Assembly: GCF_002272135.1 (NCBI RefSeq)
Contig: NZ_NPBF01000021.1
Span: 1-64,000 of the forward strand
From: Virgibacillus sp. 7505
GTDB taxonomy: Bacteria > Bacillota > Bacilli > Bacillales > Amphibacillaceae
Direction: 5' to 3'
DNA length: 64,000 nucleotides
Shown here piece after piece: positions 4,208-25,507 of the stretch. The notes beneath the pieces are model-generated. The model was not told the origin of the DNA, ran no database searches, and saw nothing but the letters and a program-made list of their open reading frames with translations. The position numbers and the translations under genes were made by a program. Position 1 is the stretch's first letter. Every line of letters begins with the position of its first letter.

Positions 4208-4472
4208 ATAAAAGATTAGAGCTAAAGAGCTTACTCAAAGAATAGTGTTACAAGAGTATATTAAATTGAATCCTGCTGTATTGTGAATTTGATGCTATAA
4301 AAATTTATTTATTTGCTCACTAATAAAGTCATTCTTCTTGTTTAATCATAACTGAAACGACGCTATAGTCTTTAAGGAAGCTTTGAGTTTTTGAAGGATT
4401 CAACCATTCCTATCTAGTATATATAAAAGAGATATACACGGTCTATTCTAAAATTAGTTAGGGGTATGTAAG

Positions 4473-5315
4473 GTGAATTATGTTGTTAATAAGGAATGGC
4501 TCAATGAACATCTAGATGACGATCGAGTTAGGATAATAGACTGCCGTTTTGAATTAGGCAATCCGGAGAAAGGAGCAGGTCTTTACATAGAAAGCCATAT
4601 TCCTGGTGCTGTTTATTTTCATCTAGAAAGCCAATTATCAGCTCCTGTTTCAAAGCATGGCGGAAGACACCCGCTGCCTGACATAGACCAATTTAAATCT
4701 GACATCGAGAAAGCGGGAATCGATAACACACATACGGTAATTGTCTACGACGGTGGAGAAGGGTCATATGCTTCTCGATTTTGGTGGCTGCTTCAATATT
4801 TAGGTCATGAAAACGTATTTGTACTAAATGAAGGTTTTAATGGATGGGTTGAAGCTGGCTACGAGACGACAAAGGATTTACCTGATAATGAAACAACTGA
4901 ATTTAAAGTGTCTATAAGAAAAGACATGCTGGCTTCCTATGAGGAAGTGAAGGAAGTTGTCGAACAAGAGAAAAAGTCTTCCATATTGATAGATTCAAGA
5001 GAGGAAAGACGCTACATAGGAGAAGTGGAACCAATTGACAGGGTAGCTGGCCATATTCCTGGCGCCATCAATAAATTTTGGGCAGAGGGATTGAATCAAG
5101 GATCATTTAAAGAAGGCGAAGAACAGAAAAAAAGATTTGCTGAGCTGGATACTAAAGATCCGGTTATCGTGTATTGCGGATCAGGTGTAACGGCTGCTCC
5201 TAATTACATTGCTTTAAAAATGGCTGGGTTCGAGAATGTAAAATTATACGCGGGAAGCTATAGTGATTGGGTTTCATATGAGCAAAATCCCGTAGCAAAG
5301 GGTAAAGGTATATAA
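4473..5315 (+). CDS. Sulfurtransferase, tandem rhodanese (TST/MST type)
   Basis: 280-residue cytoplasmic protein with two rhodanese domains, about 1-130 and 150-275. The C-terminal domain carries the catalytic loop starting at Cys235 (CGSGVTA), the form seen in 3-mercaptopyruvate sulfurtransferases rather than the CRKGVT loop of classical rhodanese. The N-terminal domain is inactive: the equivalent position is Asp93 in VYDGGEGS. It should transfer sulfane sulfur from thiosulfate or mercaptopyruvate to a thiol or cyanide. The GTG start has AGGGGT at 4460-4465. It is 44 bases before an aldo/keto reductase; no functional link is evident. Confidence 0.9.
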   Translation: MNYVVNKEWLNEHLDDDRVRIIDCRFELGNPEKGAGLYIESHIPGAVYFHLESQLSAPVSKHGGRHPLPDIDQFKSDIEKAGIDNTHTVIVYDGGEGSYASRFWWLLQYLGHENVFVLNEGFNGWVEAGYETTKDLPDNETTEFKVSIRKDMLASYEEVKEVVEQEKKSSILIDSREERRYIGEVEPIDRVAGHIPGAINKFWAEGLNQGSFKEGEEQKKRFAELDTKDPVIVYCGSGVTAAPNYIALKMAGFENVKLYAGSYSDWVSYEQNPVAKGKGI

Positions 5316-5359
5316 CGAGATTCGCTTAAATCAATAAAACTTAGATTGGAGACCTTAAG

Positions 5360-6337
5360 ATGGACTATCGATACCTTGGTAAATCTGGTTTGAAGGTAAG
5401 CAGACTTTGTTTAGGTACGATGAATTTTGGTACTACTACAGAAGAAAAGGATGCATTCCGAATTATGGATGCAGCACTTGATGCAGGCATTAATTTCTTT
5501 GACACGGCGAATGTATACGGTGCAAAAAATCGAGGTCTGACAGAATCAATTATCGGAAGATGGTTCAAGCAAGGCGGAGGCCGGAGGGAGAAAGTCGTTC
5601 TGGGTACAAAAGTATACGGAAGCATGCATAATGCTGCCGATGGTCCAAATGATGAGGCTGGGTTGTCAGCTTATAAAATTCGGCGTCATCTTGAAGAATC
5701 TTTAAAGCGCTTGCAAACCGATTACATTGAGCTGTATCAGATGCATCATATTGATCCTGCCGTAACGTGGGAAGAGCTATGGGGAGCTTTTGAATTAGGA
5801 ATCAGCCAAGGGAAGATAGGTTATGTCGGCTCCAGTAACTTTGCTGCTTGGCAGCTCGCGGTAGCACAAGGTGCAGCAAAAAACCGCCATTTCTTAGGTC
5901 TGGTTTCCGAACAGCATAAATACAATCTCAACTGTCGATATGCTGAATTGGAAGTACTTCCAGCAGCGGAACAGCTTGGGATTGGCATTATCACATGGAG
6001 TCCTCTGGATGGCGGTCTGCTTGGAAGGAATGCACTTAAAAAATTACCTGGAAGCCGAAGTGATAAGATTGGTGATAAAATCGATGCCCAGCGAGTACAA
6101 TTGGAGCAATTCGGTCAACTGTGTGAAGAAATAGGAGAAACACAGGATAATGTTGCGCTGGCTTGGCAGCTTGCCAATCCAGCTATAACTGCGCCAATCA
6201 TTGGGCCGCGTACAGTTGGGCAATTCGAGAGTGCATTACATGCGCTAGAAATTCACCTTGATGAATCCGTTTTAAAACAGCTGGATGAAATTTTCCCGGG
6301 TCCAGGCGGGGCAGCACCGTATGCTTATGCTTGGTAA
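5360..6337 (+). CDS. Aldo/keto reductase family oxidoreductase
   Basis: 325-residue TIM-barrel NADPH-dependent oxidoreductase of the AKR superfamily. The tetrad is visible as FFDTANVYG (Asp, Tyr), LGTKVYG (Lys) and YQMHHID (His). The cofactor region near the C-terminus (PIIGPRTVGQFESAL) is also conserved. It is most like the YghZ/general stress AKR group. The ATG is preceded by TTGGAGA. Possible substrates are aldehydes such as methylglyoxal, but this cannot be decided from sequence. It ends at a strong terminator shared with the converging gene. Confidence 0.9.
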   Translation: MDYRYLGKSGLKVSRLCLGTMNFGTTTEEKDAFRIMDAALDAGINFFDTANVYGAKNRGLTESIIGRWFKQGGGRREKVVLGTKVYGSMHNAADGPNDEAGLSAYKIRRHLEESLKRLQTDYIELYQMHHIDPAVTWEELWGAFELGISQGKIGYVGSSNFAAWQLAVAQGAAKNRHFLGLVSEQHKYNLNCRYAELEVLPAAEQLGIGIITWSPLDGGLLGRNALKKLPGSRSDKIGDKIDAQRVQLEQFGQLCEEIGETQDNVALAWQLANPAITAPIIGPRTVGQFESALHALEIHLDESVLKQLDEIFPGPGGAAPYAYAW

Positions 6338-6378: not shown

Positions 6379-7528
6379 ACTGCCGAAGGACTGCATCCGC
6401 AAGCGAATACACTACTGCATCATCAGTAGGTGGGTTATGCAATCCAGCTCTTACATCACGAAAATGGCGCTGCAGCGGATTGTCGGCAGACAAACTCCGG
6501 GCTCCAACTATTCGCATGCATAGATCCACGACTTCGTTCGCTTTATTGGTGGCAATATGTTTTGCAGCAGCTAAATCAGGACTCATTTCTGATCTTTTTT
6601 CAGGGTGCTCGACCCACTTCCTAGCTGTACCATAAAGTACTTCTCTGGCATTAAACAAAGCCAATTCTATCTCGCCGATTTTTCTCCTGACCTCTGGAAC
6701 ATCCTTAATTGGACCTGGCAAGGAAACAGGCTGGAGTTCTGACGCAAATTGAATGGTATAATCTCTCGCAGCAACAGCAATACCTAGGTAAACAGCCGCA
6801 ATCTGTAAGTACCAGCCTCTTGTAGTGGACTTGCCCTTGGTTTCTTCCACAAGCAGCGCATCTTGCTCAACAATTACGTCTTCCAAAATCAAATCATCGC
6901 TTCTTGTACCTCTCATTGCGATGCTATTCCATGTTTCTTCCACAGATACGCCTTCCAAACTATGATCGATCAAAAAGAAGCCTTTGTTTCCAGATGGAAG
7001 TATAGTTGCGGTAGCAATACTGTAGTCCAAAGCAGCAGCCATCGAAGCAAAAGATTTACGGCCATTAATTCTCCATCTTGAACCTTCCAGCGTTGCAGTT
7101 GTCGTCGGAGCTGCTCCTCTTGAAGGACTGCCAGTGGCGTTTTCTGTCTGAACTAAATTGAGAAGAATTTTGTCATGAATGATTTTGTTGCATAGATGCT
7201 GAAAACTTTGTTCATCCCATTGTCTGCTTTCTGCGTTTTCCAGTACAACACCGAGCTGCCAGCCAAATGATAGAGCGGTAGGAGCATCACCTTGTGCAAG
7301 TATCTCTTGAACTTGTAAGTACTCGACAAGATTTAATCCTTTGCCTCCATATTCCGTCGGCACAGTCAGTGACAAGAAGCCTCTTTCCTTAAGTGCCTGG
7401 AAGTTTTCATATGGGAACTCGCCGCTGCTGTCAAAATGAGCTGCACGTTCTTTGAATTCTTTAGAAAGGATTCTTGCTTGCTGTATCACTTGATCAAACA
7501 CTTTTGTTTTCTCGGCAGTTTCTCGCAT
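6377..7528 (-). CDS. Acyl-CoA dehydrogenase-fold flavin monooxygenase (SfnB/DszC-like)
   Basis: 383-residue protein with the three-part acyl-CoA dehydrogenase fold: helical N-domain (about 1-115), central beta-domain (VQTENATGSPSRGAAPT, GRKSFASMA) and C-terminal helical bundle with RHFRDVRAG. The family includes reduced-flavin monooxygenases acting on organosulfur compounds (DszC, SfnB). The start is ATG 7528, because AGGAGA (7535-7540) is too close to ATG 7534. It lies directly behind a minus-strand SAM riboswitch and opposite an LLM monooxygenase under its own SAM riboswitch. This points strongly to organosulfur breakdown rather than fatty acid oxidation. The substrate is unknown. Confidence 0.85.
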   Translation of the reverse strand: MRETAEKTKVFDQVIQQARILSKEFKERAAHFDSSGEFPYENFQALKERGFLSLTVPTEYGGKGLNLVEYLQVQEILAQGDAPTALSFGWQLGVVLENAESRQWDEQSFQHLCNKIIHDKILLNLVQTENATGSPSRGAAPTTTATLEGSRWRINGRKSFASMAAALDYSIATATILPSGNKGFFLIDHSLEGVSVEETWNSIAMRGTRSDDLILEDVIVEQDALLVEETKGKSTTRGWYLQIAAVYLGIAVAARDYTIQFASELQPVSLPGPIKDVPEVRRKIGEIELALFNAREVLYGTARKWVEHPEKRSEMSPDLAAAKHIATNKANEVVDLCMRIVGARSLSADNPLQRHFRDVRAGLHNPPTDDAVVYSLADAVLRQ

Positions 7529-7552: not shown

Positions 7553-7578
7553 TAAAAAAACTCTTTCATATGAAAGAG
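7553..7578 (-). terminator. Expression-platform terminator of the minus-strand S-box
   Basis: An 18-base perfect palindrome (7561-7578) is followed on the minus strand by seven T. The upstream arm CTCTTTCAT is nearly complementary to ATGAGAGAG in the 3' strand of the riboswitch P1 helix, giving a mutually exclusive antiterminator. Confidence 0.85.
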
Positions 7579-7597
7579 GTGGCGTTATGTAAGCATT

Positions 7598-7708
7598 CTC
7601 TCTCATCTCTCAGACATTTCTGTCTGCTGGAATTAGCACCTTGCTTCATGAAAAGCGGTTGCTGCAGGGTCGCTGGACCAGTTCCTACCCTGACTCTAGA
7701 TAAGTGTA
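7598..7708 (-). promoter_or_regulatory. SAM-I (S-box) riboswitch controlling the ACAD-like monooxygenase
   Basis: Read on the minus strand, the sequence has the S-box order: CTTATC (P1 5' side), a GACCCTGCAGCAACC core, GGTGCTAATTCCAGCAG, a P4 hairpin and GATGAG (P1 3' side, near 7602-7607). This is the SAM-I consensus. With SAM bound P1 forms and the terminator at 7553-7578 folds; without SAM the antiterminator allows transcription of the gene at 6377-7528. So expression should rise when methionine/SAM is low. Confidence 0.93.
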
Positions 7709-7833
7709 ACTATTCGGTTGTCGGCATAAATATAATCCATAATTTGAATATTGTCAATTATACATTTAATTTAGAAAACTCAATTGACAGACAGAGGACT
7801 GTCCTGTATATTGAGCTGTAATTCAATAAGCAT

Positions 7834-7940
7834 TTCTTATCCAGAGAGGTGGAGGGACTGGCCCTTTGAAGCCTCGGCAACAGACTGCTGCAGTACTGTG
7901 CCAATTCCAGCAAGCTGCTAGCTTGGAAGATGAGAAGAGA
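7834..7940 (+). promoter_or_regulatory. SAM-I (S-box) riboswitch controlling the LLM-metNIQ operon
   Basis: The S-box consensus is clear: TTCTTATC (7834-7841) pairs with GATGAGAA (7929-7936) as P1. Between them lie AGAGAGGTGGAGGGACTGGCCC, GAAGCCTCGGCAACAG and GTGCCAATTCCAGCAAG. GAGAAGAG in P1 can instead pair with CTCTTCTT in the 5' arm of the terminator at 7970-8004. The switch should shut the operon off when SAM is abundant. It is oriented back to back with the minus-strand S-box at 7598-7708, leaving about 125 bases for divergent promoters. Confidence 0.95.
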
Positions 7941-7969
7941 GTGGACGTCGTACGCCTGCGTCGACTTAG

Positions 7970-8004
7970 AAAGACCTCTTCTTATCCGAGAAGGGGTCTT
8001 TTTA
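7970..8004 (+). terminator. Expression-platform terminator of the plus-strand S-box
   Basis: AAAGACC pairs with GGTCTTT, with an inner CTTCT/AGAAG stem, followed by TTTTTATT. It lies between the aptamer and the ribosome binding site of the monooxygenase gene. Confidence 0.9.
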
Positions 8005-8028: not shown

Positions 8029-9432
8029 GTGGGAAAGCAAATCATTTTGAATGCATTTGATATGAATAGTGCGATGCATAACTCGCATGGGTTATGGAAG
8101 CACCCAGAGAGTAAGCGGCATCGTCAGTACAAGAATCTGAATTATTGGATCGATCTTGCGAAGTTACTCGAACGCGGTAAAATCGATGCAATCTTCTTTG
8201 CCGATGTACTGGGAATATATGATGTTTACCGGAATAGTAAAGCTCCTTCTATCCGGGATGGCCTGCAGGTCCCCCTGAATGATCCAGCGCTATTGATTTC
8301 TGCAATGGCAAGTGTAACCGAGAATTTGGGTTTCGCAGTTACAGTAAGTACTACATATGAACCGCCATTTGGGAATGCACGACGTTTTTCCACCCTGGAT
8401 CATTTGACGAAGGGCAGAGTTGCTTGGAATGTTGTGACGTCATATCTTCCGAACGCTGCGCGGAATTTTGGTTTGACCGAAATGATCAAGCATGATGAGC
8501 GGTATGAGATTGCGGATGAATTCCTGGAGGTTTCATATAAGCTTTGGGAAAGCAGCTGGGAGGAGGATGCAGTGGTTGAGGATCTGCAAAACCAAGTATT
8601 GGTGAATCCTGAAAAAGTACATGAAATCAATCATGAAGGCCATTACTTCCAGGTAGAGGGACCGCATTTGAGTGAGCCTTCCCCGCAGCGGACACCTGTG
8701 ATTTATCAAGCGGGTACATCCGAACGTGGACGGGAATTTGCTTCCAAGCATGCAGAATGTGTTTTCGTTGGAGGGCCCACGCCTGAGCGTATCCGTCACT
8801 ACGCAGAGGATATAAGGGAGAGGGCTGCTAAGCATGGGCGAAATCCAGATCACATTAAGATTTTCTCTTTCCTGAGTGTCATCGTAGCGGAAACCACAGA
8901 AGAGGCGCAGCAAAAGTATCAGGAATATGCAAGTCATTGGAGTCCGGATGCTGCCAAGGCGCAATTTGGTGCAAGCGGCTATGACATTTCCGAATATGAG
9001 GAAAAGGATCCTGAAGAGCCGTTTTCTTATGGTAAAACGACAGAAGGCGGCCACTATAAAGCAGCCTCATTGACAAAGGATGCAGCCAAGCAGCTGACAG
9101 TCGGCGAAGCATTGAAGCGGTTTGATACACCTGACAAAAGCTTGATAGTCGGGAATCCAGAAGAGGTGGCAGATAGCATCCAGCACCAATTCGAAGAATC
9201 TGGAGTCGACGGTTTTAATTTGAACCACCTTGTTACCCCGGGGGATTTGGAGTCATTTGTTGACCTGGTAATCCCGATCCTGCAAGAAAGGGGACTTTAT
9301 AAACAGTCCTACAAATCAGGCACATTGAGAGAAAAATTATTTGACTATGAATCAAGCAGACTACCGGCTGGGCATCCTGCAACTAAGTTTCGACAGCTGA
9401 AAATACCGACAGGAGAGGGAGATGAAAGGTGA
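8029..9432 (+). CDS. LLM class flavin-dependent monooxygenase (NtaA/SnaA/DszA type)
   Basis: 467-residue bacterial luciferase-like monooxygenase. Family marks include ILNAFDMNSAMHNSHGLWKHP at the N-terminus, EPPFGNARRFSTLDHLTKGRVAWNVVTS, and a C-terminal GFNL segment. Members use reduced FMN from a partner reductase and oxygen to attack sulfones, sulfonates or chelators such as nitrilotriacetate. The start is GTG 8029 with GGAGGG at 8017-8022; earlier in-frame codons fall in the riboswitch. It is the first gene of an operon with MetN-MetI-MetQ (overlap of four bases with metN). S-box control indicates sulfur scavenging. No flavin reductase is encoded nearby. Confidence 0.9.
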   Translation: MGKQIILNAFDMNSAMHNSHGLWKHPESKRHRQYKNLNYWIDLAKLLERGKIDAIFFADVLGIYDVYRNSKAPSIRDGLQVPLNDPALLISAMASVTENLGFAVTVSTTYEPPFGNARRFSTLDHLTKGRVAWNVVTSYLPNAARNFGLTEMIKHDERYEIADEFLEVSYKLWESSWEEDAVVEDLQNQVLVNPEKVHEINHEGHYFQVEGPHLSEPSPQRTPVIYQAGTSERGREFASKHAECVFVGGPTPERIRHYAEDIRERAAKHGRNPDHIKIFSFLSVIVAETTEEAQQKYQEYASHWSPDAAKAQFGASGYDISEYEEKDPEEPFSYGKTTEGGHYKAASLTKDAAKQLTVGEALKRFDTPDKSLIVGNPEEVADSIQHQFEESGVDGFNLNHLVTPGDLESFVDLVIPILQERGLYKQSYKSGTLREKLFDYESSRLPAGHPATKFRQLKIPTGEGDER

Positions 9433-10460
9433 TAAAACTGGAGAACATCACAAAGAAATACAGCAGCAAGGGAAAGGAGATCATTGGCGTTGACGATGTG
9501 ACACTAACCGTTGAAGCTGGTGAAGTGTTTGGAATAGTTGGATACAGCGGAGCGGGCAAGAGTACCTTGCTGCGCTGCATCAACCTATTGGAAAAGCCAA
9601 CGTCTGGCAAAGTCTTTGTTGATGGAGTTGATTTGCAGGAGCTGTCGCCAAAGAATCTGCGAAAAGCAAGACAGTCGATCGGTATGATTTTTCAAGGCTT
9701 TCATCTAGTCTCCTCAAAAACGGTATTTGAGAATGTGGCATTTGCATTACGAGCTGCAGGAGCAGATAAAAAACAAATAAAGCAGCGAGTGGATGAGCTG
9801 CTTGCCTTGGTGGGGTTAGAGGATCGGAAACATCAGTATCCAGCACAGCTTAGCGGCGGTCAGAAGCAGCGGGTCAGTATTGCACGGGCACTTGCGAATC
9901 AGCCAATGATCCTTTTATGTGACGAAGCTACTTCTGCCTTGGACCCTGGTACGACAAAATCAATTTTGGCTTTGCTGAAGAAGATAAATAAAGAACTGGG
10001 TCTGACAATCGTTGTCATCACGCACGAAATGGAGGTTGTAAAGGAGATTTGCAGCCGCTGTGCAGTGATGCAAGATGGGAAAGTGGTAGAGCATGGTCCA
10101 ACTTATGATATTTTCTCCGATCCTGCTAATCCTCTGACAGTATCGTTTATCCAGACTGTACTTAGTTTTGATCTCCCTGAAGAATTATTGGGAGAGATAA
10201 ATGGAAAGCTGGTCAGGCTGCAATTCAAAGGCAGCATTGCTGCCGATGCTGTTGTATCGGATATGCTCCAGGCTTTTCCGATCCGCGGCAATATACTGCA
10301 CGGCAAAGTAGAGTACATCCAAAGCAAGCCGTTAGGAATTTTTGTGATGGAATTGAACGGAAATGAAGCAGAAGTAAATAAAGCAATTGCTTATCTGAGA
10401 GATAAAGTAAGCAAGGTGGAGGTGTTTGATGATGGATCGCGTAATCGCCATCTTGCCTGA
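9429..10460 (+). CDS. metN: Methionine-type ABC transporter ATP-binding protein MetN
   Basis: 343-residue ATPase that powers the D/L-methionine-type importer. Walker A is GYSGAGKST near residue 38, the signature LSGGQKQR near 140 and Walker B LLCDEATSALD near 160. The last about 90 residues (from about 255) form the NIL/ACT-like regulatory domain that binds methionine in MetN. The GTG start overlaps the end of the monooxygenase gene. It precedes metI, which it overlaps, and metQ. The linkage to an LLM monooxygenase suggests the imported compound may be an organosulfur substrate rather than methionine only. Confidence 0.93.
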   Translation: MIKLENITKKYSSKGKEIIGVDDVTLTVEAGEVFGIVGYSGAGKSTLLRCINLLEKPTSGKVFVDGVDLQELSPKNLRKARQSIGMIFQGFHLVSSKTVFENVAFALRAAGADKKQIKQRVDELLALVGLEDRKHQYPAQLSGGQKQRVSIARALANQPMILLCDEATSALDPGTTKSILALLKKINKELGLTIVVITHEMEVVKEICSRCAVMQDGKVVEHGPTYDIFSDPANPLTVSFIQTVLSFDLPEELLGEINGKLVRLQFKGSIAADAVVSDMLQAFPIRGNILHGKVEYIQSKPLGIFVMELNGNEAEVNKAIAYLRDKVSKVEVFDDGSRNRHLA

Positions 10461-11091
10461 ATTGAACCAAGCATTTCTTGAAACGCTTCTAATGGTTTCC
10501 ATCGCTTTGGCTGTGGCGATCTTGATTGGGCTGCCATTTGGAATTCTATTATTTGTAACAGACCGAGGCTTGTTTTTAGAAAATGTGGTGGTAAAAAGAA
10601 TAGCCGGACTAATTATCAATCTCATTCGATCGGTTCCTTTTGTTATTCTGCTTGTCTTCTTACTGCCTTTCACACAATTTCTGCTCAACACGACGATCGG
10701 CCCTTTAGCTGCTTCTGTCTCTTTATCTGTTGCAGCTATCCCGTTTTATGCGAGAATAGTTGAATCTTCAGCCAGGGATATAGACAAGGGTGTGATTGAA
10801 GCAGCTATTGCTGTAGGTGCATCTCCGTGGATGATTATCAGAAGTATCATCCTTCCGGAAGTAAAGCCCGGCTTAATCACAGGACTAACCATTACAGCTA
10901 TCAGTCTTATTGGATATTCTGCTATGGCAGGTACAATAGGCGGAGGCGGGATCGGAGATTTGGCAATACGGTATGGGTACTACAGATACGATAATACAAT
11001 CATGTTCACTACAGTTATCGTACTGATAGTACTCGTCCAAGTTGTTCAATACTTAGGTGATCTTATAGCACGAGTTGTATCAAAAAGATGA
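10429..11091 (+). CDS. metI: Methionine-type ABC transporter permease MetI (MetP)
   Basis: 220-residue inner membrane protein with five to six transmembrane helices and the EAA loop EAAIAVGASPWMIIRSIILPEV, which docks on MetN. The length is standard for MetI. The N-terminus overlaps the end of metN by about 32 bases, and AAGGTGGAGG (10413-10422) favours ATG 10429; ATG 10432 and TTG 10426 are close alternatives. It is translated with its operon partners under the SAM riboswitch. Confidence 0.93.
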   Translation: MMDRVIAILPELNQAFLETLLMVSIALAVAILIGLPFGILLFVTDRGLFLENVVVKRIAGLIINLIRSVPFVILLVFLLPFTQFLLNTTIGPLAASVSLSVAAIPFYARIVESSARDIDKGVIEAAIAVGASPWMIIRSIILPEVKPGLITGLTITAISLIGYSAMAGTIGGGGIGDLAIRYGYYRYDNTIMFTTVIVLIVLVQVVQYLGDLIARVVSKR

Positions 11092-11110: not shown

Positions 11111-11923
11111 ATGAAAAAAGCTATTTTATTGTTATTTGCCGCCGTGTTCATCACAGTCTTAGCTGGCTGCGGTTCCGGAGAAAGCAGTGCCTCATCTGAT
11201 AAAAAGATCGTCCTAGGTGCAACAATTCCGTATAGCGACATGCTTGAAAAAGGCGTAAAACCGTATCTGGAGGATAAAGGATATACAGTGGAAGTAAAGG
11301 AGTTCAATGATTATGTGCAGCCGAACAAATCGTTGGAAACCGGTTCACTGGACGCCAATTTATTTCAGCATAAAGTATATATGGACGCTTTCGCCGAGGA
11401 GAACAACATGGAGCTGACCGGCGTAATAACAGTTCCAACAGCACCTATCGGTATTTATTCAAATGAATTCAAGTCACTGGATGAAATAAAAGATGGAAGC
11501 ACCGTCGCACTCGCTAATGATCCGACTAATCTTGGTCGTGGACTGACCGTCCTAAGAGATAATGGTCTTATTGAAATCGATGAAAATGCTGATCCATTGC
11601 GGGTCACAGAGAAAGACGTGATAAGCAATCCGAAGAATTTAAAATTTGAACCAGTAGAAGCTGCACAGCTGCCGCGGACATTGGAATCCGTTGATTTGGC
11701 TGCTATTAATGGAAACTTCGCTATATCAGCTGGCATCGATTTAGCAACAGCACTCGCACTTGACGAATTGCCGGAGGACATTCAGAACCGCGTAGTTGTA
11801 TCTACAGAAAATAAAGATGAGCAATTTGTTCAGGATATAAAGGAAGCGGTGGAGTCAGAGGAGTTTGCTAAGGTGATTGAGGAAGAATTCAAAGAATTTC
11901 ATAAGCCGGAGTGGATGAAATGA
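11111..11923 (+). CDS. metQ: Methionine-type substrate-binding lipoprotein MetQ
   Basis: 270-residue NLPA-family lipoprotein. The signal peptide ends in the lipobox LAGC (Cys20), followed by a Ser-rich linker. The mature part has typical MetQ features: KIVLGATIPYSDMLE, NKSLETGSLDANLFQH, NDPTNLGRGL and INGNFAISAG. It is anchored on the outer face of the membrane and delivers ligand to MetI/MetN. A good AGGAGG precedes the ATG and a terminator follows at 11932. Whether the ligand is methionine, methionine sulfoxide or another organosulfur compound is open. Confidence 0.93.
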   Translation: MKKAILLLFAAVFITVLAGCGSGESSASSDKKIVLGATIPYSDMLEKGVKPYLEDKGYTVEVKEFNDYVQPNKSLETGSLDANLFQHKVYMDAFAEENNMELTGVITVPTAPIGIYSNEFKSLDEIKDGSTVALANDPTNLGRGLTVLRDNGLIEIDENADPLRVTEKDVISNPKNLKFEPVEAAQLPRTLESVDLAAINGNFAISAGIDLATALALDELPEDIQNRVVVSTENKDEQFVQDIKEAVESEEFAKVIEEEFKEFHKPEWMK

Positions 11924-24199: not shown

Positions 24200-25507
24200 A
24201 TGCTGACGATATTAGGTTTTTCTATGATGACTGTATTTACTGTTCTGATTATGTCTAAAAAGCTTTCTCCCATTGTTGCTTTGACGTTGACACCGATTTT
24301 CTTTGCTTTAATTGGAGGATTTGGAGGAAGCCTTGGAGATATGATCTTGGATGGACTGCAAACTGTTGCCAGTTCTGCAGCCTTGTTATTATTCGCTATC
24401 TTGTTTTTCGGAATCCTCATTGATGCCGGTTTATTCGATCCTCTAATCAAGAAAATACTAGTACTAGTAAAGGGTGATCCTGTAAAAATTGCGATTGGCT
24501 CAGCTGTACTGGCAATGCTGATTGCATTGGACGGTGATGGAACCACCACTTACATGATCACGGTTTCTGCAATGCTTCCTTTGTATAAACGGATTGGTAT
24601 GAATCCGCTTGTTATGGCAACAGTCGCAATGCTGGCCTTGAGTATCATCAGTGGTATGACTCCTTGGGGAGGGCCTGCAACCAGAGCAATCGCGGTACTA
24701 GGGCTCGATCCTTCGGAATTCTTTGTCCCACTTCTGCCCACTATGCTTGGAGGTATGATTTTCGTCGTCTTTACTGCTTTTATGCTCGGTCTTAAGGAAC
24801 GGAAACGTATAGGAGTGATGGAAATAAAATCCGGTAACTATGAGTCAGAACCTTATATGGCTGCAGCTTTGGAAGGGGACTTACTGAAGCGGCCAAAGCT
24901 TCGCTGGATAAATTTATTCCTTGTCATAGCTATCTTGGTATTGCTGGTAATGGGAATTATGCATCCGGCAGTACTCTTCCTCATAGGTTTTGTGTTGGCT
25001 TTATCTATCAATTACCCTAATATCCAAATACAAAAAGAGCGTATTGCGGAACATGCAAGCAATGCAATCACAGTTGTTTTGCTTGTCTTTGCTGCGGGTG
25101 TTTTCGCTGGCATATTGTCCGGAACAGAAATGGTCAATGCAATTGCAGGTTCGATTGTCGCATTCGTTCCGCCGTCCATGGGTGAACTTTTCCCGGTAGT
25201 TGTAGCTATCACAAGTCTTCCATTGACCTTTGTGCTTTCAAATGATGCGTATTACTTCGGAATGGTACCTATATTCGCTGAAGCTGCATCAGCCTACGGT
25301 GTTGACCCTATTGAAATCGCCAGGGCTTCCATTTTAGGGCAGCCGGTACATCTAATGAGCCCGCTTGTAGCTTCTACGATATTGCTTGTCAGTATGTTGA
25401 AAATCGATCTTGGTGCATTTCAGCGATATGCAGTTAAATGGGCTGTTTTGACTTCATTATTCATTATTCTCGTAGCGATAGTAACAGGTGCCATTACATT
25501 CCGATGA
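24200..25507 (+). CDS. CitMHS family tricarboxylate:cation symporter
   Basis: 435-residue, about 12-helix membrane protein of the CitM/CitH family, which imports metal-citrate complexes or protons with citrate. ALDGDGTTTYMIT (about 100-112) and SGMTPWGGPATRA (about 138-150) are family signatures. GAGAGGGG favours ATG 24200; the in-frame ATG at 24194 is too near. With the PrpF-like isomerase and LysR regulator it forms a small acid-utilisation locus. The substrate may be citrate, aconitate or another tricarboxylate. Confidence 0.9.
   Translation: MLTILGFSMMTVFTVLIMSKKLSPIVALTLTPIFFALIGGFGGSLGDMILDGLQTVASSAALLLFAILFFGILIDAGLFDPLIKKILVLVKGDPVKIAIGSAVLAMLIALDGDGTTTYMITVSAMLPLYKRIGMNPLVMATVAMLALSIISGMTPWGGPATRAIAVLGLDPSEFFVPLLPTMLGGMIFVVFTAFMLGLKERKRIGVMEIKSGNYESEPYMAAALEGDLLKRPKLRWINLFLVIAILVLLVMGIMHPAVLFLIGFVLALSINYPNIQIQKERIAEHASNAITVVLLVFAAGVFAGILSGTEMVNAIAGSIVAFVPPSMGELFPVVVAITSLPLTFVLSNDAYYFGMVPIFAEAASAYGVDPIEIARASILGQPVHLMSPLVASTILLVSMLKIDLGAFQRYAVKWAVLTSLFIILVAIVTGAITFR

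Follow-up and report, generated by a model that had tools for sequence, protein, structure and literature searches.

Two genes point away from each other in the stretch of DNA that we have analyzed, which is 64,000 nt long (the window). One codes for a flavoprotein with the acyl-CoA dehydrogenase (ACAD) fold, the other for an LLM-class monooxygenase, which is followed by the genes of an importer. The region between them raises several questions: Does each gene have a SAM riboswitch of its own, is such an arrangement exceptional, and what could the genes under its control have in common? SAM-I riboswitches are known in Bacillota, B. subtilis yitJ is an example. Our main reading, to which we assign a probability of roughly 80%, is that two independent SAM-I riboswitches, each with its own promoter, attenuate two opposite transcription units. 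The features on which it is based are collected in Table 1.

Table 1. Predicted control elements and genes of the two divergent units, in order of position.
Feature	Position	Strand	Evidence
ACAD-fold flavoprotein, 383–385 residues	6377..7534 or 7528 (two candidate starts)	-	four Pfam acyl-CoA dehydrogenase domains over cut-off
Intrinsic terminator, minus leader (7-bp stem, 4-nt loop, then seven T)	7561..7578	-	-7.7 kcal/mol
Antiterminator 5' strand, minus leader	7598..7606	-	9 pairs, 7606-7598 with 7578-7570
SAM-I aptamer, leader of the ACAD-fold gene	7600..7706	-	RF00162 83.8 bits, full length
Predicted sigma-A promoter, minus unit, TTGACA-17-TATATT	7729..7757	-	11/12 consensus matches
Predicted sigma-A promoter, plus unit, TTGACA-17-TATATT	7784..7812	+	11/12 consensus matches
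SAM-I aptamer, leader of the LLM monooxygenase / MetNIQ-type operon	7834..7936	+	RF00162 94.6 bits, full length
Antiterminator 5' strand, plus leader	7929..7939	+	11 pairs with 7976-7986
Intrinsic terminator, plus leader (17-bp stem, 4-nt loop)	7967..8004	+	about -22 kcal/mol
LLM-class FMN-dependent monooxygenase, NtaA/DmoA family, GTG start	8029..9432	+	TIGR03860 530 bits
MetN-type ABC ATPase with NIL domain	9429..10460	+	PF00005 and PF09383 over cut-off
MetI-type permease	10426..11091	+	PF00528 over cut-off
MetQ/NlpA-type substrate-binding lipoprotein	11111..11923	+	PF03180 257 bits

Two SAM-I leaders on opposite strands

The original prediction had placed one S-box on each strand. We have run the Rfam covariance model for SAM-I (S-box, RF00162) on both strands of the whole 64-kb window, and both elements are confirmed: The plus-strand match (E = 1.8e-21) and the minus-strand match (E = 2.5e-18) are far above the gathering threshold of 44.4 bits. 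Both aptamers cover positions 1–108 of the 108 in the model, and no other Rfam gathering-level match is found in the window. They are part of two complete SAM-I leaders placed head to head, with 127 bp between the aptamers, and both predicted promoters lie inside this spacer. As read from its sequence, the region is made up of two complete transcription-attenuation switches pointing apart, it is not one shared device. An antisense or shared-RNA device is ruled out by the geometry, since both transcripts would start at predicted promoters in the spacer and run outward. Inverted duplication of one S-box is also ruled out: The two aptamers are 59.3% identical, compared to a mean of 60.2% for all pairs among the 19 SAM-I elements of this genome. 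The aptamer of the LLM gene is closest to the one which precedes the other LLM gene of the genome, with 78.6% identity.

The -35 boxes of the two predicted promoters are 26 nt apart. The form of the minus-unit promoter is identical in four other copies from the genus (L049, L068, L070 and L125). Among 18 divergent loci, 32 of the 36 promoter sides have 11 of the 12 consensus bases, compared to 0.4% in mononucleotide shuffles. The plus side of L069 is counted with 11 matches only because of a site which is 80 nt away from the aptamer, and no more than 9 are found on the minus side of L077 and on that of L050.

Four terminator-like sites are found between positions 7500 and 8050, the shuffle mean is 0.2. 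Two of them are the terminators shown in Table 1, the other two are a single palindrome (7786–7803) read on both strands, which we have left uncounted. The folding energy of the minus-leader terminator is -7.7 kcal/mol here and -11.7 kcal/mol in a genome of the same species (L125); such a weak terminator may lead to leaky repression in the strain of the window.

Terminators and antiterminators had also been predicted, one set per strand, and they are present (11 antiterminator pairs in the plus leader, 9 in the minus leader). Each antiterminator overlaps the 3' strand of P1 (by 8 nt in the plus leader and 7 nt in the minus leader) and also the 5' arm of the terminator. Because both use the 3' strand of P1, the antiterminator and the bound aptamer are mutually exclusive. 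When the RNA is folded up to the 5' arm of the terminator, without ligand, the antiterminator fold is preferred in the plus leader (-54.6 vs -50.9 kcal/mol) and in the minus leader (-38.3 vs -32.6 kcal/mol). This preference agrees with a switch whose P1 has to be held by SAM. In the full-length minus leader the terminator and antiterminator folds are almost level (-40.3 vs -41.2). Judged by sequence and folding, a SAM-I transcription attenuator is found on both strands. At the 19 ACAD/LLM loci examined, a terminator-like hairpin is found in each of the 38 leaders, together with 6–12 bases complementary to the 3' region of P1, a count which has no shuffle control.

The genes of the two units

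The ACAD-fold protein has four Pfam domains over the cut-off (PF02771, PF02770, PF08028 and PF00441), which place it in this fold. Its closest solved structure is 5gj7/5z8t (342 bits), which is named only as an acyl-CoA dehydrogenase type 2 domain protein. The other 26 structure matches listed have at most 92.5 bits, they include MsuC (6u76, 86 bits) and DszC (65 bits). It is probably a group D-type monooxygenase, to judge from these matches. Two more specific identities have been rejected: SfnB (TIGR04022, 111.7 vs a cut-off of 430.9 bits) and DszC (NF043015, 72.6 vs 850 bits). A gene similar to mercaptopyruvate sulfurtransferase (177.5 bits, cut-off 250) and an aldo-keto reductase gene, at 4473–6337, adjoin the ACAD gene and are convergent on it.

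The LLM protein belongs to the NtaA/DmoA family, with a TIGR03860 score well over the NCBIfam cut-off of 279.7 bits. Its solved relatives are LadA (563 bits), DmoA, which is the second best (459 bits), and YtnJ (276 bits). It is neither SsuD (96.7 vs a cut-off of 518.2 bits) nor SfnG (95.5 vs 383 bits).

A NIL-domain ATPase, a permease and an NlpA lipoprotein with adjacent genes (PF09383, PF00528 and PF03180) correspond to the gene set of a MetNIQ importer. None of the three proteins passes the methionine-specific NCBIfam cut-offs: The ATPase has 397 bits with TIGR02314 (cut-off 499.7), the permease 198 bits with PRK10782 (cut-off 212), and the MetQ-type protein is below both methionine models (167 vs 374 and 153 vs 229 bits). 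The importer names given in the original prediction stand as domain types (MetN, MetI and MetQ), but the cargo need not be methionine. The closest solved structure to the MetQ-type protein is GNA1946 (216 bits). Its identity to the MetQ of the same module is 72% in Fictibacillus norfolkensis (L064) and 70% in L111 (G069), and only 32–35% to three further proteins of the MetQ type, encoded in S-box operons of its own genome.

Distribution of divergent pairs and sulfur metabolism

The genome which contains the window (G000) has 19 SAM-I elements. They include a second divergent pair (L128, G000:C26:24894-24997(-) / 25196-25299(+)), flanked by an M20 amidohydrolase gene (TIGR01891) and by metI/metC-type genes. 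For 19 elements, two divergent pairs are more than expected by chance: A mean of 0.009 pairs is obtained when they are placed at random, and a mean of 0.04 pairs when they are placed on the starts of transcription units, with a probability of 0.0004 for two or more, under our own assumptions of 2000 starts and 45% of them head to head. Ten genomes of the genus, which we call Terribacillus, contain 188 SAM-I matches. Among the best 150 of these 188, the spacing of the second pair (gap 185–213) is found in all ten genomes and that of the window pair (126–127) in five. All five copies of the window type (the window and L122–L125) have the ACAD, LLM and MetNIQ genes; the genes flanking the second pair were looked at in the genome of the window alone.

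The S-box set of this genome includes the window pair, a paralogue of the LLM with 66% identity, four MetNIQ-type systems, metI/C-type genes, a gene of the Na+/H+-antiporter family and M20/M42 genes. SAM-I elements also precede a MetY-type gene (649 bits over 495) and an SfnG-like LLM (L019; 195 bits, below the cut-off). By eye and not by scan, we take other S-box genes to be MetX, MetK and homoserine-dehydrogenase-like, and the importer after MetY to resemble SsuABC. Three other loci of the genome deserve mention. At L133 (G000:C26:12083-12187) a SAM-I element precedes SfnG (578 bits over 383), yet no sulfite reductase domain is found in the genome. At L127 (G000:C21:202432-207060) an SsuE-MFS-LLM-ACAD operon follows the SAM-I element with the highest score in the genome (103.5 bits), so that LLM and ACAD are associated under SAM-I a second time. 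At L139 (G000:C33:165500-173000) MetX- and MetY-type genes are found in tandem, each with its own SAM-I element, and the MetY-type gene is followed by genes similar to those of ABC importers.

A pattern for two head-to-head SAM-I cores in one spacing band detects 33 stretches in 84,980 species genomes, and Rfam confirms a divergent SAM-I pair in 28 of them. The other five have been left out: Neither strand is confirmed in L054, L056, L061 and L073, and only one in L065 (Macrococcus hajekii, ~4472–4800), whose minus strand has an Rfam SAM-I match and whose plus strand has no gathering-level partner. ACAD and LLM are paired in 14 of the 28 (both genes are seen in 13, L050 is cut): eight from Fictibacillus, three from Terribacillus (L049, L068 and L070, records of T. 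halophilus and T. saccharophilus), and one each from Terrihalobacillus, Fredinandcohnia and Bacillus sinesaloumensis. Six come from Oceanobacillus or Ornithinibacillus (L048, L059, L063, L067, L074 and L075) and correspond to a different divergent pair. All six have an SsuE-like gene, 46–49% identical to the SsuE of our genome, with an NtaA-type LLM behind it in five. On the facing side, five of the six have an LLM 41–45% identical to L019, one of which scores 284.5 bits with the SfnG model, under the cut-off of 383. The rest are four Clostridium-type pairs in which MetNIQ faces an M20-like gene, two of metI/C type and two others. Genes of the flavin monooxygenase type are found on at least one side in 20 of the 28 pairs. 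When the pattern alone, without a check by Rfam, is applied to 397 genomes of the order, the first band is found in 17 genomes and a wider band in 9, together these are 24 genomes; read backwards, the pattern has no matches in these 397 genomes. All of these pair counts miss diverged cores and other spacings.

The original prediction considered a divergent pair of S-boxes shared by two oxygenases and an importer to be unusual. These counts, as well as the second pair in the same genome, do not support such rarity, and a case is already in print: Divergent SAM riboswitches precede the methionine salvage operons of Exiguobacterium chiriqhucha N139, according to the available text of PMC5399880. 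Such divergent pairs are not common, but they have been seen before. In the portions of the openly licensed literature covered by our searches, not all of which were aimed at this question, we have found no account of a divergent S-box region with ACAD and LLM genes. A 2004 comparative study of methionine regulation in Gram-positive bacteria may list such S-boxes.

The layout in which an ACAD-fold gene and a DmoA/LadA-type monooxygenase gene diverge, each from its SAM-I element, is found repeatedly in Terribacillus, Fictibacillus, Terrihalobacillus and Fredinandcohnia, and the aptamers match as well. The paired layout therefore looks selected, as far as sequence comparison can tell. In 100 genomes of the family, the LLM has a match at 1e-150 or better in 17, and in 13 (window included) it is at least 76% identical. 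An ACAD orthologue adjoins it in eight of these 13, seven of them divergent with two SAM-I elements. The exception is G099, with ACAD and LLM on one strand, each behind its own S-box, and a third S-box in the opposite direction before an SsuE-like gene. The other five belong to genus g23: One S-box is followed by a gene of 499–542 residues and then by the LLM, with no ACAD orthologue beside it. This additional gene codes for a sodium:solute symporter in L117, the only copy for which the family was tested. Because these five LLM orthologues have no adjoining ACAD gene, the ACAD enzyme is not obligatory. LLMs of 68–70% identity follow MetN-MetI-MetQ genes in L119–L121, where no SAM-I match is found. 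In the L111 copy an SsuE-type flavin reductase (207 bits over 164) is added to the operon.

The aptamers of each side align readily across genera. Covariation is slight, with 1 and 2 pairs showing double changes in the two aptamer sets, because the sequences hardly vary. Six unusually long SAM-I elements (152–153 nt) are found in L113–L118, the extra length of L113 sits in two hairpins.

We have also searched for genes of sulfate assimilation. ATP sulfurylase has no match in the genome of the window, the only one searched for it. PAPS reductase is not found over the cut-off in any of the ten genomes of the genus (there is one weak match, in G008), and a sulfite/nitrite reductase domain is found in only one, as a 217-residue frame in G009, a genome of the same species. 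Within the sensitivity of these searches, the reduction of sulfate to sulfide seems to be absent from the genus, which looks unable to use sulfate. Twenty genomes were used for comparison: G069, G036, G075 and G099, which contain the ACAD/LLM module; G425, which has the same coordinates as L077; the five g23 genomes, which contain the LLM only; and ten of genus g91 with the divergent pattern, six of which share coordinates with the Fictibacillus loci L053, L058, L064, L069, L076 and L079. PF01507 is over the cut-off in all twenty (with just 28.8 bits in G036) and PF01077 in 14. The five g23 genomes have a PAPS reductase match (PF01507) and no PF01077 match, so a sulfite reductase may be missed, and its absence in Terribacillus is a search result, not a proof. 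In genomes of Fictibacillus which have the pair, there are matches to PAPS reductase as well as to sulfite reductase domains. A strict dependence of the module on lost sulfate assimilation is ruled out, since PAPS reductase, and in most cases a sulfite reductase domain, is retained in other genera which have the pair.

Possible function and comparison with known systems

When SAM is plentiful, each aptamer would bind it, P1 would be held, the terminator would form and transcription would end ahead of the gene. At low SAM, the 5' arm of the terminator would pair with the 3' strand of P1 instead, and both units would be transcribed. They would rise together with no RNA in common. We infer this SAM response, and the co-regulation of both units, from the structure of the leaders. 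A common response of both units to methionine/SAM starvation is the natural reading, because each unit appears to have a complete SAM-I switch and both are kept together in several genera. The signal given in the original prediction, methionine/sulfur starvation, should be corrected: The riboswitch senses SAM, not sulfur as such.

What the two units would do together is less clear. We hold with about equal belief and doubt that their products cooperate in organosulfur salvage, with S-oxidation and C-S cleavage feeding methionine. The presumed order of steps is as follows. The dedicated MetQ-type importer would take up the substrate, the ACAD-fold enzyme would oxidize the sulfur of this organosulfur (thioether-type) compound, the LLM, of the DmoA/LadA/YtnJ type, would cut the C-S bond using reduced flavin, and the thiol set free would go to methionine. 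An amino-acid-like substrate is favored because a MetQ-type binding protein is a frequent partner, this suggestion is tentative. A thiol product is favored because sulfite reductase seems to be missing, and MetY could convert a thiol to methionine. Similar reactions have been described. In Acinetobacter, group D (ACAD-fold) enzymes oxidize DMS and DMSO, and LLM enzymes of the SfnG/SsuD type carry out later steps, as given in the accessible part of PMC13352529. For B. subtilis, cleavage of an N-acetylated S-alkylcysteine by an FMN monooxygenase and deacetylation by M20 enzymes are described in the accessible part of PMC12757645, whose reference list includes a title on an alkylcysteine sulfoxide C-S monooxygenase.

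The substrate might be, as a possible but doubtful alternative, a small organosulfur compound which is not an amino acid, such as DMS, DMSO or a sulfone. The ACAD enzyme would then act like Dms1-3 and the LLM like DmoA, and MetY would fix methanethiol into methionine. DmoA is the second-best solved relative of the LLM, and SfnG, SsuE and MetY genes are found under SAM-I in the same genome. Methanethiol is made into methionine by O-acetylhomoserine sulfhydrylase in Rhodopseudomonas, as stated in the accessible part of PMC5893883, and a genus seemingly unable to reduce sulfate or sulfite would need a product at the thiol level. However, the conserved MetQ-type importer would be superfluous for such substrates, and the Fictibacillus genomes with the pair do match both reductase domains. 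In addition, the accessible part of PMC13352529 states that no group C enzyme oxidizes DMS in Acinetobacter, which also counts against the chemistry that we propose.

It is unlikely that the LLM is a monooxygenase for alkanes or other compounds without sulfur, with a SAM switch serving some other need. Its best solved relative, LadA, is an alkane monooxygenase, and of the residues named for DmoA in the accessible part of PMC9259527, those at 230–231 are SE as in LadA, not SG. On the other hand, positions 137–138 (DmoA/LadA numbering) are SY as in DmoA, while LadA has SH, and the linkage to MetQ-type importers, SsuE-type reductases, ACAD partners and S-boxes is repeated in several genera. A chance neighborhood, two S-box units which merely abut without any joint function, would fit with aptamers which are not sister copies, but it is very improbable: Several genera have these two genes head to head, together with these two aptamers, and in G099, where the genes are in tandem, each still has its own S-box.

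Organosulfur salvage under SAM control may be extended to a wider suggestion, which we regard as speculative. The module might be an unrecognized route for oxidative thioether salvage in the methionine branch, entirely under SAM-I and a counterpart to the S-alkylcysteine clusters known from B. subtilis: MetQ-type import of compounds similar to S-alkyl-homocysteine or methionine, sulfoxide formation by the ACAD enzyme, cleavage by the LLM, and entry of the thiol directly into methionine. In Terribacillus this route might be part of the main sulfur supply, because both sulfate and sulfite reduction appear to be missing, and it points to a spore-former seemingly living on organic sulfur. The conserved head-to-head region would tie an ACAD-fold enzyme, a DmoA/LadA-type enzyme and a distinct MetQ-type protein to one methionine-starvation response, a direct functional lead for three gene families. 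It is also a natural two-reporter test bed, with a single SAM signal and two opposite attenuators whose promoters are so close.

The RNA parts of the region are textbook. They resemble the SAM-I riboswitches of Bacillota (RF00162) in the aptamer, in the antiterminator/terminator coupled to P1 and in a place mostly upstream of methionine genes, but here two of them stand head to head before ACAD-fold and LLM monooxygenase genes. Exiguobacterium chiriqhucha N139 also has two divergent operons of one pathway with a SAM riboswitch each; we compare it by its published description (available text of PMC5399880), in which the genes correspond to methionine salvage instead of oxygenases and an importer. 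Candidatus Pelagibacter, as described in the accessible part of PMC5069961, is an organism without assimilatory sulfate reduction which has SAM switches on metY and other genes, but they belong to the SAM-II and SAM-V classes, and that part of the text mentions neither divergent SAM-I pairs nor such oxygenases.

For the enzymes, the assimilation of DMS and DMSO2 by Dms1-3, SfnG, MsuC and SsuD also combines group D (ACAD fold) and group C (LLM) flavin monooxygenases, with one flavin reductase; there sulfite is the end product and no SAM riboswitches are mentioned, as far as the accessible part of PMC13352529 goes. LadA (3b9n) and DmoA (6ak1) belong to the same LLM subfamily as the window LLM, which differs in its gene neighbors and its regulation. 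The scm (yxe), ytn and yha S-alkylcysteine clusters of B. subtilis also have an FMN-dependent monooxygenase which breaks an S-alkyl bond, and YtnJ is a distant relative of the window LLM. These clusters contain M20-family deacetylases, and M20 genes are found under SAM-I elsewhere in our genome. According to the accessible part of PMC12757645, they recover cysteine and include an acetyltransferase gene. The window module lacks this gene, and it differs from them in its SAM-I control, its MetQ-type importer and its ACAD-fold partner.
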